Shown piece after piece: positions 10,297 to 24,728 of a stretch of DNA of 64,000 nt; position 1 is the first letter of the stretch, and every line of letters begins with the position of its first letter. The stretch comes from Exiguobacterium aurantiacum. GTDB lineage: Bacteria; Bacillota; Bacilli; Exiguobacteriales; Exiguobacteriaceae. The notes beneath the pieces are model-generated. The model saw only the letters and a list, made by a program, of their open reading frames with translations. It did no database searches and was not told the DNA's origin. Where the stretch lies: positions 462,501 to 526,500 of the forward strand of contig NZ_CP101462.1 in assembly GCF_024362205.1 (NCBI RefSeq), in the 5' to 3' direction. A program made the translations under genes and the position numbers.

Positions 10297-11013
10297 TTAG
10301 AACAATGTGTATGGGTTAACGCTATTGGCAGCCGTCGAGCTGCTATAGACGTATTTGTCTTTGTGGACCTCGAAGTGGAGATGGTTCCCGAACGAATTGC
10401 CGGTGTTGCCGACCGTACCGATTTTCGCACCTTTGGCAACTTTTTGTCCTTTAATGACGTTCAAGCGATCCATGTGGGCGTAGACAGTCGTATACGCTTG
10501 ACCGTTGATCGTGTGTGTAATCATGACGTGATTGCCGTAGGCGCCATAATTCCGGGCGACGATGACTTGACCGTATGCTGCCGATTGGACCGTCGTGCCT
10601 TTGGCGGCTGCCAAATCGATGCCGTTATGGAACGTGTAGCCGTACTTCCCGCTCGCCGGGCCGTACCCTTGCGTCAACGTGCCTTTCGTCGGGACGAGGA
10701 GCTTGCCCGCTGTCGCCGTTTGGAGTGATGTGCTGCTATATTTTTTTACGTATGTACTCGAGACGTATTTTGTACTGCCGTTATAATTGATTTTCGTCCA
10801 TGAACCGGTCGCGCCGAGATATGTGAACGTTTGGCCGAGTTTGGCGCTGCCGACTTTTTGGTAAGACGTCGATGGGCCGCTCCGCACGTTCAGGACATTC
10901 GTCGTGACTTGGACTTTATACGATGTCGAAGCCTCTACTGGTGTCGAAGCTGGAAGCGTCAAGCCGGAAACAAGAAGAGCGCCTAATGTGATCGTCATAA
11001 GTTGTTTTTTCAT
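10297..11013 (-). CDS. Secreted SH3b-M23 peptidoglycan endopeptidase
   Basis: 238-aa exported cell-wall hydrolase. Order: signal peptide (MKKQLMTITLGALLVSGLTL, cleavage probably after VEA), SH3b domain (NVLNVRSGPSTSYQKVG and GSWTKINYNGSTKYV), then an M23 metallopeptidase domain. Zinc and catalytic residues are visible: FHNGIDLA (His, Asp) and HLHFEVH (HxH), plus GTVGNTGNSFGNH. I chose ATG 11013 because it begins the signal peptide, with AAAGGA about 11 nt upstream; the in-frame upstream extension lacks these signals. It is alone, with an AT-rich region upstream. Confidence 0.88.
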   Translation of the reverse strand: MKKQLMTITLGALLVSGLTLPASTPVEASTSYKVQVTTNVLNVRSGPSTSYQKVGSAKLGQTFTYLGATGSWTKINYNGSTKYVSSTYVKKYSSTSLQTATAGKLLVPTKGTLTQGYGPASGKYGYTFHNGIDLAAAKGTTVQSAAYGQVIVARNYGAYGNHVMITHTINGQAYTTVYAHMDRLNVIKGQKVAKGAKIGTVGNTGNSFGNHLHFEVHKDKYVYSSSTAANSVNPYTLF

Positions 11014-21063: not shown

Positions 21064-21226
21064 TTTGCCCGACCGGGCACAGCTCGCTTTTCTGGGGGCA
21101 AGCAGGGAGCCGCATCGCGACTTTGTCGCTGCTGGGTCTCCCTTTGCTTGCTAATCCCCTGGAAGTCTCGCCGTGCCCGCAGTCGGCCCACGCATCAATC
21201 CCTCTTTTCGTACCGTCGTCGCTTTT

Positions 21227-21232
21227 TTATAA
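21227..21232 (+). promoter_or_regulatory. Transposase -10 box
   Basis: A perfect TATAAT in TTTTTTATAATGAG lies about 36 bp before the transposase start. A matching -35 is not clear. Confidence 0.5.
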
Positions 21233-21267
21233 TGAGAGATATAGAAACAATTATGGAGGCGAATCGG

Positions 21268-22635
21268 ATGATCAGGAAATCAACAGAATCGGAAACCAAT
21301 CGGACACAACTGGAGATGGTCACGCTCGACGAGCTTGTGCCAGCGGACCATCTGGTCCGAAAAATCGAGGCGGTGATCGACTTTGAGTTCATCTATCCGC
21401 TCGTGGAGGACTTATATTCTGAGGACCGTGGCCGGCCAAGCGTCGACCCTGTCGTTCTGATCAAGATGGCCTTCCTTCAGTACCTGTTCGGTATCCGATC
21501 CATGCGACAGACAATTCGTGAGATCGAGACGAACGTCGCATACCGTTGGTTTCTCGGGTTCGGATTCACGGACAAGGTGCCACATTTCTCGACGTTCGGG
21601 AAGAACTATGTGCGTCGGTTCCAGTACACGAGCTTATTCGATGACATCTTCTATCATATCCTTGAACAGGCTGCGGACGCAGGGTTCATCGATCGCGCCG
21701 TCCTATTCGTAGACTCGACACACGTCAAAGCGAACGCAAACAAGCGGAAGCTCGTCAAGAAGACCGTCCGGCAAGAGGTGAAACACTATCAGGAACAACT
21801 CGATGCCGAGGTCGAGCGAGACCGCGAAGAAAGTGGAAAGAAGCCCTTAGGGCCAAAAAAGAATCAGGCGGAGGAGACGAAGGAAATCAAGGTCAGCACG
21901 ACAGACCCTGAGAGTGGATATTACGTAAAAGGTGAGCGTGAGAAGCAGTTCGCTTACTCTGTCCATGCGGCGAGCGACGCCCATGGGTTCGTGCTCGGTG
22001 CTATCGTCACACCGGGTAACGTGCACGATAGTGTAGCGTTCCCCAATCTGCTCGACAAGGTCTCCGACCGCCTGATTCAACCGTTCGCCGTCGCCGCCGA
22101 CTCCGCCTATAAAAATCCGGCCATTGCCAAGCTGTTGATTGACCGTGGGATCCTGCCGGTCTTCCCATACACCCGCCCGAAGGGTAAGAAGGGCGCCTTC
22201 AAGACCAAGGATTTCATCTACGACGAGCACCATGACGTCTACATCTGCCCAAACAACGAGTTATTAACGTACAGCACGACGATGCGCGAGGGGAAACGCA
22301 AGTACGTCTCGAATCCCGCGGTTTGTGTGAACTGCCCGCTGCTCGAGCAGTGCACGAAGAGCCAGAAGCACCAGCGGATCATCGAGCGACACCTCTGGCA
22401 ACCCTATATGGACGAGGTCGAAGACCTCCGCCACACGGAATTGAACCGCAACATCTATGACCGTCGTAAACAGACGGTCGAGCGCGTGTTCGCGGACGCA
22501 AAAGAGAAGCATGGCATGCGTTGGACCCGTTATCGGGGACTTGAAAAAGTTTCAATGCAGGCGATGCTTACTTTTGCTGCCCTCAATCTCAAGAAGATGG
22601 CGGGCTGGGCATGGAAGAACGCCCAGCCCGCCTGA
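21268..22635 (+). CDS. IS1182-family DDE transposase
   Basis: 455-aa transposase. The N-terminal domain carries RTQLEMVTLDELVPADHLVRK-type family sequence, followed by SVDPVVLIKMAFLQYLFGIRS. Catalytic-core candidates: Asp in LFVDSTHVKAN, Asp in AADSAYKN, Glu in RRKQTVERVFADAKEKHG. A Cys group (CVNCPLLEQC) lies between the last two. I chose ATG 21268 with GGAGG 8 nt upstream; longer in-frame starts precede the likely +1. The gene is intact, so the element may still be active. Confidence 0.9.
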   Translation: MIRKSTESETNRTQLEMVTLDELVPADHLVRKIEAVIDFEFIYPLVEDLYSEDRGRPSVDPVVLIKMAFLQYLFGIRSMRQTIREIETNVAYRWFLGFGFTDKVPHFSTFGKNYVRRFQYTSLFDDIFYHILEQAADAGFIDRAVLFVDSTHVKANANKRKLVKKTVRQEVKHYQEQLDAEVERDREESGKKPLGPKKNQAEETKEIKVSTTDPESGYYVKGEREKQFAYSVHAASDAHGFVLGAIVTPGNVHDSVAFPNLLDKVSDRLIQPFAVAADSAYKNPAIAKLLIDRGILPVFPYTRPKGKKGAFKTKDFIYDEHHDVYICPNNELLTYSTTMREGKRKYVSNPAVCVNCPLLEQCTKSQKHQRIIERHLWQPYMDEVEDLRHTELNRNIYDRRKQTVERVFADAKEKHGMRWTRYRGLEKVSMQAMLTFAALNLKKMAGWAWKNAQPA

Positions 22636-23280: not shown

Positions 23281-24204
23281 TTATACGTTCATCTGCTCAT
23301 TTGGTTTCGTTTTGTAGAAGCTATAGACGACACTGATCAAAATGACGAGCACGATCGTCCCGAGCGACATCCAGATTGGCATCTTGTACACGTCACCGAA
23401 TATCATCTTCGTCCCGATGAAGACAAGCATAAAGCTGAGTCCGTGCTTCAAGTAGTAGAAGCGATCAATCAAGTTGGCGAGCACGAAGTAGAGGCTACGG
23501 AGTCCAAGAATCGCCATAATGTTCGCGTAGAAGATGATATACGGATCGAGCGAGTAGGCGAAGCTGGCCGCGACCGAGTCGACGGCGAAGACGATATCCG
23601 ACAGCTCGATAAAAATCAGCGCGATGAAGAGCGGCGTGAAGAACAGCTTGCCGTTGATGCGTTGCGTGAACTTCCCGGACGAGATGTCTTGCGTGATCGG
23701 CAAGCGGCGCTCGAGCCAACGAATCGTCTTGTTCTCTTCGAGCGACTCATCCTTACCGATGTTCTTAAACATCATCCAGCCGGTGTAGACGAGGAAGGCA
23801 CCGAACACGTAATAGACCCAACCGAAGTTTTCCAAGAGCGAGACGCCTGCGACGATGAATACGGCCCGGAAAAGAATCGCACCGAGGATACCCCATAACA
23901 ACACCTTATGTTGGTACTTGAGCGGAATCGCGAAGTAGGCGAAGACGAGCGAGAAGACGAACACGTTATCGATGGCGAGTGCCTTCTCGATGAAGTAGAC
24001 GCTCGCGTATTCGGTCGCGGCCGTGCTTCCTTGCGAGTGGAACAACCAACCGCCGAACGCGAGAGCGATCCCGATCCAGACGAACGTCCATGTCCATGCC
24101 TCGCGGAGCGAGACTTCGTGTGCCTTGCGGTGGAACACCCCGAGATCAAGTGCGAGCATGAAGATGACGAGTGCCAAAAAGGCGATGAGTAGGGTCAACA
24201 ACAA
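23281..24204 (-). CDS. TerC-family integral membrane protein
   Basis: 307-aa TerC/Alx-type membrane protein, a family linked to manganese efflux or metal loading of exported proteins and to tellurite resistance. Seen: about nine helices, conserved acidic motifs in the membrane (LDLGVF, EKALAIDNVFVFSLVF, FIELSDIVFAVDSVAA), as in characterised members. The start is TTG, 24204 or 24201, with AGGAGG 5 or 8 nt upstream. A clear promoter with two palindromic operators lies directly upstream. Confidence 0.88.
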   Translation of the reverse strand: MLLTLLIAFLALVIFMLALDLGVFHRKAHEVSLREAWTWTFVWIGIALAFGGWLFHSQGSTAATEYASVYFIEKALAIDNVFVFSLVFAYFAIPLKYQHKVLLWGILGAILFRAVFIVAGVSLLENFGWVYYVFGAFLVYTGWMMFKNIGKDESLEENKTIRWLERRLPITQDISSGKFTQRINGKLFFTPLFIALIFIELSDIVFAVDSVAASFAYSLDPYIIFYANIMAILGLRSLYFVLANLIDRFYYLKHGLSFMLVFIGTKMIFGDVYKMPIWMSLGTIVLVILISVVYSFYKTKPNEQMNV

Positions 24205-24217
24205 TTCCTCCTTTTAG

Positions 24218-24269
24218 GTTCATATGAACTCTATATTTTTATATTAAGTTCATATGAACCTAAAGTCAA
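24218..24269 (-). promoter_or_regulatory. TerC-gene promoter with two identical operators
   Basis: Minus-strand promoter: TTGACT (24264-24269), 17-bp spacer, TAATAT (24241-24246). GTTCATATGAAC, a perfect 12-bp palindrome, fills the spacer (24248-24259) and is repeated downstream at about +5 to +16 (24218-24229). The centres are exactly 30 bp apart, about three helical turns. This is a classic repressor layout; the regulator is not in the window. Confidence 0.8.
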
Positions 24270-24414: not shown

Positions 24415-24600
24415 TCACTTTTTAGGCTTTTGGAATTGATTCAGAACGCCTTTGACTTTGTCCGCTAAAGAGTCAGAATGGCCGTCGTTGCGTTGATGGA
24501 TCGATTTATCATCATTCATTTTCCCAGTTATTTCTTTCGCCTTGGCCGCAACTTGGTCAATGATGTGGTCATACTTACCGTTTTGTTTGTGATCAGACAT
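24415..24600 (-). CDS. CsbD-like stress protein
   Basis: 61 aa, highly charged and helical: KYDHIIDQVAAKAKEITGKM and SDSLADKVKGVLNQF. This matches the general-stress CsbD family pattern (K(A)KE-x-TGK near the middle, DKVKG near the end). I chose ATG 24600 with AGGAGG 10 nt upstream. CsbD is under the general stress factor in Bacillus; no such promoter could be confirmed here. Confidence 0.7.
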   Translation of the reverse strand: MSDHKQNGKYDHIIDQVAAKAKEITGKMNDDKSIHQRNDGHSDSLADKVKGVLNQFQKPKK

Positions 24601-24728
24601 AAGTCTAATTCCTCCTCGTATCATGTCTTTATTAATGTTTTAACCAATTTTGAAGAAGGATAAACTTTTAAGGTCGAAAGAACTTGTTTTCACATATTGT
24701 TAGTTTGAAAAAATCAAAGTGATATTGA

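Follow-up and report, generated by a model that had tools for sequence, protein, structure and literature searches.

Introduction

How is a TerC-family gene controlled that carries two identical palindromes in its promoter, and would the protein that binds them act on other genes as well? This question is raised by a locus of Exiguobacterium aurantiacum, situated in a stretch of 64,000 nucleotides (contig C1 462501-526500 of a genome of 3,154,266 bp, here G000) that we call the window. In Bacillus subtilis, meeY is under riboswitch control and meeF lies in a constitutive operon that is further inducible by stress-responsive sigma factors, and MeeF and MeeY support the activity of a manganese-dependent lipoteichoic enzyme (PMC10550928). 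B. subtilis mutants without TerC proteins are reported to be defective in lipoteichoic acid synthesis (PMC10550928, PMC12096827). A study of MntR and AhrC in B. subtilis states that the role of YkoY and YceF in manganese transport remains unclear, and its available text names no operator of the type described here (PMC10448178). For Exiguobacterium, terC has been listed among tellurium genes (PMC5360010). Open-licence searches on the operator letters, TerC, Exiguobacterium regulons, LiaR/LtaS and TerC/LtaS returned no literature on such an operator among the matches listed, and no regulator study was among the matches listed for Exiguobacterium and TerC. The available portions of PMC3616900, PMC10888875 and PMC3412718 likewise contain no operator of this type.

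Two identical palindromes in the terC1 promoter

The product of the gene, here terC1, scored 372.4 bits against TIGR03718 (curated cut-off 246.4 bits) and also matched PF03741 in a profile search. Its 21 long named relatives are all from Exiguobacterium (87-96% identity); the remainder are one short Exiguobacterium match and five non-Exiguobacterium proteins at 40-43% identity. The terC1 promoter contains the 12-bp palindrome GTTCATATGAAC twice, with centers 30 bp apart, and both copies are nested in imperfect 20-bp palindromes (Table 1). One copy is located in the promoter spacer between the TTGACT and TAATAT hexamers, the second inside a leader of about 30 nt that ends just before AAGGAGG. 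The earlier note had marked positions 24218 to 24269, which begin at the leader palindrome and extend up to the start of the -35 hexamer, as twin operators in the promoter of a TerC-family gene, and the identity and spacing of the palindromes, the position of one of them in the promoter spacer and the assignment of the downstream gene were all borne out. Copies scattered at random over the genome, which would speak against an operator, were not seen. G000 holds just two perfect copies of GTTCATATGAAC, both in the terC1 promoter, at a chance expectation of 0.21 copies (first-order Markov). Eleven further places in G000 match GTTCATATGAAC with one mismatch, seven within predicted reading frames and four outside, and one of these four lies upstream of gltB.

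A transposase ORF of the window (21148-22635; DDE_Tnp_1_6/DUF772) lies near terC1, and one near the paralogue terC2 (L254:3-1295) is nearly identical to it over the part compared.

Table 1. Positions of the promoter elements, genes and predicted operators around terC1 in the window.
Feature	Position	Strand	Remarks
Predicted operator 1, GTTCATATGAAC	24248-24259	none	terC1 promoter spacer; extended palindrome 24244-24263
Predicted operator 2, GTTCATATGAAC	24218-24229	none	Transcribed leader, just 5' of the ribosome-binding site; extended palindrome 24214-24233
-35 hexamer TTGACT, terC1 promoter	24264-24269	-	98% pairwise identity in the genus
-10 hexamer TAATAT, terC1 promoter	24241-24246	-	17-bp spacer; 88% pairwise identity
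Shine-Dalgarno AAGGAGGAA of terC1	24205-24213	-	Read from the sequence; orthologues similar
terC1, Alx-type TerC family membrane protein	23281-24204	-	Start TTG at 24204 or 24201
Third operator-like site, ACAAGTTCTTTCGACCTTAA (minus strand)	24668-24687	none	Upstream of the CsbD-like ORF; matrix score 18.0
Short CsbD-like ORF adjoining terC1	24415-24600	-	PF05532 E 0.0095, 16.2 bits, below the cut-off of 40

Conservation of the half-sites in terC1 orthologues

We compared the terC1 promoter across 38 genomes of the family, 19 from the window's genus (g1) and 19 from a sister genus (g2). The comparison covers 34 upstream regions, 16 from g1, where no terC1 match was found in three of the 19 genomes, and 18 from g2, with G027 left out. 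A site was counted as present at no more than one mismatch in the eight half-site bases. Of the 34 promoters, 33 retain the spacer site; G024, the exception, has the leader site alone. The leader site is kept in 17 promoters, namely in all 16 of g1 and in G024, one of the 18 from g2; in the other 17 g2 promoters it was not found by the same criterion. Hence, the proposed twin arrangement holds in part: the spacer site is kept widely, whereas its leader twin was found only in the window's genus and in one divergent sister species. In G006, the terC1 gene (L026, C2:170056-170976) contains an internal TGA and TAA, yet the operator sequences are intact.

Within the 16 g1 promoters the half-sites GTTC and GAAC show a pairwise identity of 94% (site 1) and 97% (site 2), compared to 66% and 62% for the central four bases. 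The 40 bp upstream of the -35 hexamer reach 31% identity. The distance between the two sites is 30 bp in eight of these genomes and 31 bp in the other eight, and the promoter spacer measures 17-18 bp by eye in the orthologues. One half-site carries GACC in place of GAAC in 10 of the 33 spacer sites and in three of the 17 leader sites. A palindrome with fixed arms and a freer center that overlaps sigma-A-type promoter elements in a fixed manner (the spacer in terC1 and ltaS2, the position directly after the -10 in terC2, see below) is the mark expected of a dimeric DNA-binding protein. The dimer-type operator of the earlier note is therefore supported by the conserved half-sites, but what is conserved is GTTC-N4-GAAC, with more freedom in the center, and not the perfect 12-mer. 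Since the center is freer, a search for the perfect 12-mer misses the regulon. Indeed, the suggestion to look for further GTTCATATGAAC pairs as a regulon marker led nowhere, as G000 has just the two terC1 copies. The regulon-defining motif predicted from the alignments is (A/G)GTTC-N4-GAAC(T/C).

These data make it probable that the two terC1 palindromes are operators for one dimeric regulator recognizing RGTTC-N4-GAACY. Its role as a repressor is inferred from site position only. An alternative would be that the leader palindrome works at the RNA level, as a hairpin close to the ribosome-binding site, instead of serving as a DNA operator. Being transcribed, site 2 can fold into a 4-bp stem-loop that outer pairs extend (-4.6 kcal/mol for a stretch of 39 nt). 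However, transcription is expected to start downstream of site 1, the copy with the wider conservation, the natural GTTC....GACC variants break the stem without compensation, and the leader palindrome has no Rfam match. We regard an RNA hairpin as barely credible and keep to the reading of both palindromes as DNA operators.

The riboswitch that is known from related genes was also searched for. Riboswitches of the yybP-ykoY type (B. subtilis meeY, E. coli alx) govern genes of the same protein families, and the NCBIfam models TIGR03716 and TIGR03718 carry the name R_switched. In agreement with the earlier note, which had seen no riboswitch of the manganese type in the leader, no Rfam family reached the gathering score in the window. 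The manganese riboswitch gave no match at gathering score in L254-L257 and L261 either; together the scan covered terC1 of G000, G023 and G024, terC2 of G000 and G023, and ltaS2 of G000. Unlike the yybP-ykoY systems, terC1 has a leader of only about 30 nt.

Related sites at terC2 and ltaS2

The second TerC gene, terC2, is a YkoY-type paralogue (277 bits against TIGR03716 for the G000 copy, cut-off 138) and is present in all 38 family genomes. Its best upstream core is exact in 32 genomes and has one mismatch in six; by genus, this corresponds to 13 exact and six one-mismatch cores among the 19 g1 genomes and to 19 exact cores in g2. The core is positioned just 3' of the -10. A folE2-type GTP cyclohydrolase gene (PF02649) is the divergent neighbor of terC2 in one genome per genus (L254:5088-5996 and L255:3927-4868). 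The G000 locus also contains two divergent SAM riboswitches, arranged back to back (L254:10155-10256 on the minus and 10462-10564 on the plus strand).

The third gene, ltaS2, encodes an LtaS-type paralogue with sulfatase fold and occurs in 12 of the 19 g1 genomes. These hold 13 copies in total, of which one is interrupted by the end of a contig. PF00884 (Sulfatase) was matched by the G000 copy. Against the lipoteichoic acid synthase profile NF053595, the G006 copy reached 689 bits over most of the profile, which is under the cut-off of 970, and we therefore use the name LtaS-type paralogue. All 13 copies have the operator motif in their promoter, located in the spacer; eleven of these promoters were read, and those of G014:C7 and G007:C17 were matched by the promoter-embedded pattern described below. 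None of 19 ltaS1-type promoters read (seven g1, twelve g2, excluding genomes that also carry ltaS2, G000 among them) has the operator, and no site in them comes below six mismatches of 16. Taken together, the sites at terC1, terC2 and ltaS2 suggest a small regulon that ties metal supply to the cell envelope.

Pattern scans and controls

To place the motif in its promoter context, we used the pattern TTGAN{4,5}RGKTCNNNNGAMCN{1,2}TWWWWT, with the reversed pattern as control. It gave 39 matches in 29 of the 38 family genomes (15 at terC1, 11 at ltaS2 and 13 at a yugP-type gene), while the control gave none. The terC1 matches count the G014 promoter twice, as it lies on identical contig ends (end of C49, L088:2842-2861, and start of C23, L016:11-30), probably an assembly overlap. 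The pattern was also run on 398 genomes drawn from the whole class. There, the 38 family members repeated their matches, and five of the 360 others matched; the reversed pattern was found in five genomes, all outside the family. The matches in the 360 non-family genomes, of which three of five neighborhoods (L258-L260) were inspected, were taken as background. The terC1 and ltaS2 promoters had served as the template for the pattern, so that independent evidence comes only from the yugP matches and from the lack of matches elsewhere.

A 20-position matrix was built from the terC1 sites alone and scanned over 170,515 bases of G000. Some of the scanned loci had been chosen for their near matches; a fair background is therefore approached only by the window and by the terC2 and ltaS2 loci (L254 and L256, themselves chosen around those genes). 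In these three, the terC1 sites scored 31.2 and 26.8, followed by the site upstream of the CsbD-like ORF (18.0), terC2 (15.5) and ltaS2 (12.5), and the next score was about 7. At the other G000 loci scanned, we found 27.5 for gltB, 17.5 for yugP, 17.5 for L082, 14.4 for L085 and 14.0 for L298 (inside a frame). In each of five random full-size first-order Markov genomes, 6-10 places reached a score of 12.5 or more, and 1-2 reached 15.4 or more. Since random genomes reach such scores, the score alone is no proof for terC2 and ltaS2, and position and conservation carry the case; the predicted ltaS2 site of G000 is convincing through these two only.

The bare core GTTC-N4-GAAC is near background in frequency (84 places against 69 for the control in G000, 86 against 52 in G003, and 75 against 68 in G023). 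A loose 20-mer with three mismatches was below background in G000 (11 against 15), and with two mismatches it gave 42 places against 24 when summed over the 19 g1 genomes.

Further candidate sites

The yugP-type peptidase gene (PF04298 in the G000 copy) has the operator motif in a TTGA-17-TAAAAT promoter of 13 of the 19 g2 genomes, and the gene was confirmed downstream in all 13. Reading covered these pattern-matched g2 genomes and one of the 19 g1 genomes. In the window genome the site is present with one degraded half-site, and its core lies inside the upstream DUF1405 frame; in the g2 genomes examined (L238, L243), that frame ends with the left half-site. As the site overlaps the upstream frame, we call yugP a probable member of the regulon.

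After the two terC1 sites, the next-best place for the terC1 matrix in the window is the operator-like site upstream of the CsbD-like ORF (Table 1). Both half-sites are retained in the corresponding block of G006; changes occur between and around them. Downstream of the site is GTTTAn-N14-GGTTAn, which we take to be a sigma-B-like promoter. The CsbD-like ORF is a possible regulon member, judged from these alignments.

A high-scoring site is also found upstream of gltB (glutamate synthase domains PF00310 and PF04898) in six genomes read, two of them without terC1. The center of this 20-bp site is variable (L086:2225-2244, corresponding to G000 C1:1640224-1640243; L089, L090 and L092-L094), and no recognizable promoter spacer surrounds it. 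The gltB site is out of line with a metal or envelope theme. In G003 an operator-like site (L091:2604-2623, score 20.6) adjoins feoB (PF02421); the gene on its other side is presumably proC-like. A palindrome GTTCA-N2-TGAAC was observed in three g2 genomes (L320:985-1004, L315:1059-1078 and L333:970-989), flanked by NmrA-like (PF05368) and PPK2 (PF03976) genes, with the profiles tested in L320 only.

These comparisons bear on the question whether one protein binds all sites. The flanking bases differ between the genes, so more than one regulator is possible, and the palindromes at terC1, terC2, ltaS2 and yugP might share the GTTC/GAAC half-site by chance. The core alone occurs frequently, and in both G000 and g2 genomes the yugP site runs into the 3' end of the preceding gene, which agrees with such an explanation. 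On the contrary, the sites have the same 4-bp center, the same tolerance for GGTC/GACC half-sites and similar promoter positions, and a matrix made from terC1 only ranks the terC2 and ltaS2 sites high. Separate regulators therefore appear quite improbable to us, and a single dimeric regulator remains the preferred reading.

Comparison with known operators

Operators of MerR-type regulators lie in an over-long spacer of 19-20 bp. This type was rejected, as the terC1 spacer has 17 bp, and 17-18 bp in the orthologues. The LexA (DinR) box of Bacilli, CGAAC-N4-GTTCG, is made of the same letters around the same 4-bp center, but the order of its half-sites is reversed with respect to GTTC-N4-GAAC, and it was rejected as well. 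CesR/LiaR operators share with the terC1 set the inverted repeat and an envelope regulon. However, the CesR motif of the LiaR group, TCAGHCTnnAGDCTGA, differs from the terC1 operator in sequence and spacing (PMC4447274), and this candidate was likewise discarded.

MntR needs closer consideration. The terC1 operators might be MntR boxes through which manganese-loaded MntR represses or activates terC directly. A canonical MntR of 142 aa is encoded in G000 (238 bits against NF003025, cut-off 138), and the TerC proteins of B. subtilis are linked to manganese (PMC10550928). The operators of Bacillus MntR (mntH, mneP, mneS) are, similar to those of terC1, palindromic dimer sites in promoters of manganese genes, and several dimers may bind side by side; half-site and spacing differ, the B. 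subtilis sites being 18 bp long with 1 bp between them (PMC11275975), compared to 30-31 bp from center to center at terC1. The best-matching solved MntR is 6kta, and the segment HPSSVTKMVQKLD, the usual recognition helix, is unchanged between this protein and the MntR of G000. In B. subtilis MntR the recognition helix comprises residues 35-48, and His35, Pro36, Ser37 and Lys41 are placed beside base edges (PMC11275975).

We then looked at the promoters of mntH, which is absent from G000 and present in 19 of the 38 family genomes (four g1 and 15 g2). The four g1 promoters contain GTTTACCTAGGTAAAC, GTTTCCTTAGGTAAAC, GTTTACCTAGGGAAAC and GTTGCCTAAAGGAAAC, not GTTC-N4-GAAC. The palindrome that an MntR box at terC1 should share with them is hence not found; all four are of the GTTTnCnTAGGnAAAC type (in one case GTTGCCTAAAGGAAAC), and the best operator match in these promoters has 4-6 mismatches of 16. 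In the six of 15 g2 mntH promoters that were read, no operator match is better than 5 mismatches of 16, and they have mostly a GTTGCC-type half-palindrome at best. Because the recognition helix of MntR is the usual one and the g1 mntH promoters have a different palindrome, the terC operator is probably not that of MntR. MntR is an unlikely binder of this site, and we give direct control of terC by MntR very little chance. The near-perfect palindromes of the g1 mntH promoters (L263-L266), such as GTTTACCTAGGTAAAC, are probable MntR boxes of the genus.

Search for the binding regulator

A regulator gene under its own control should carry the operator. In eight genomes GTTCANNTGAAC occurs at 48 places, compared to 38 for the control, and seven of these are the known terC1 and terC2 sites. 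Among 40 of the 41 remaining places (30 inside frames and 10 outside, by ORF test) there was no convincing autoregulated regulator gene. Two of the places outside frames, L296 and L311, were rejected as regulator operators, since each forms the stem of a hairpin that resembles a terminator and ends a gene which we take to encode an RpiR-like regulator. Beside terC2 and ltaS2 of G000 (L254, L256) no regulator gene was seen, and none is common to the neighborhoods read (window, L254-L257). The window contains AraC-type and MarR-type genes, and around terC1 and terC2 of G023 (L257, L255) there are genes that we assume to be LytTR-, HxlR- and LysR-like.

Discussion

The arrangement of the sites allows a simple model of control. 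At terC1, a dimer bound between the -35 and -10 hexamers would block RNA polymerase. In g1, the leader site would place another dimer on the initially transcribed region, some three helical turns further downstream, which could serve as a second lock. At terC2 a dimer would occupy the start region directly behind the -10, and at ltaS2 it would fill the promoter spacer. If a signal such as the availability of manganese or stress on the envelope released the regulator, expression of the TerC metal exporters or metallochaperones and of the LtaS-type envelope enzyme would rise together. Two TerC genes and one LtaS-type paralogue in a single regulon are in keeping with control of the metal supply to envelope enzymes, and manganese or envelope stress are the likely signals. 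With respect to the metal response suggested in the earlier note, the wider targets (the second TerC, the LtaS-type paralogue and probably YugP) point to envelope metal supply as much as to metal efflux.

A more specific version would be a regulon for exoenzyme metalation. In this case a family-specific repressor would sense manganese in the envelope, replace the manganese riboswitch and co-control both TerC metallochaperones with a likely manganese-dependent LtaS-type client and a membrane metallopeptidase. We consider this rather unlikely as a whole.

The regulator might also be an envelope-stress response regulator or another non-metal repressor, with the metal link being incidental. An LtaS-type paralogue is among the targets, a membrane peptidase probably is, and the CsbD-like gene with its presumed sigma-B-like promoter may be; gltB, if it is a target, is no metal-homeostasis gene. 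Some LuxR-type response regulators bind a 6-4-6 inverted repeat, and the terC1 site, a 6-4-6 inverted repeat itself, resembles these. However, such response regulators mostly activate, whereas the position in the spacer suits a repressor. Furthermore, the CesR motif gives no match, and the best-conserved targets are the two TerC paralogues. A non-metal regulator is rather unlikely on this balance, and we favor one dimeric, probably repressing regulator of the two TerC genes and ltaS2.

An operator of the terC1 type offers a concrete DNA bait for a new regulator. The family would represent a lineage in which TerC genes have promoter operators and, at the loci scanned, no riboswitch. A regulon of TerC genes and an LtaS-type paralogue, derived from promoter sequence alone, would independently support the link between TerC proteins and lipoteichoic acid.
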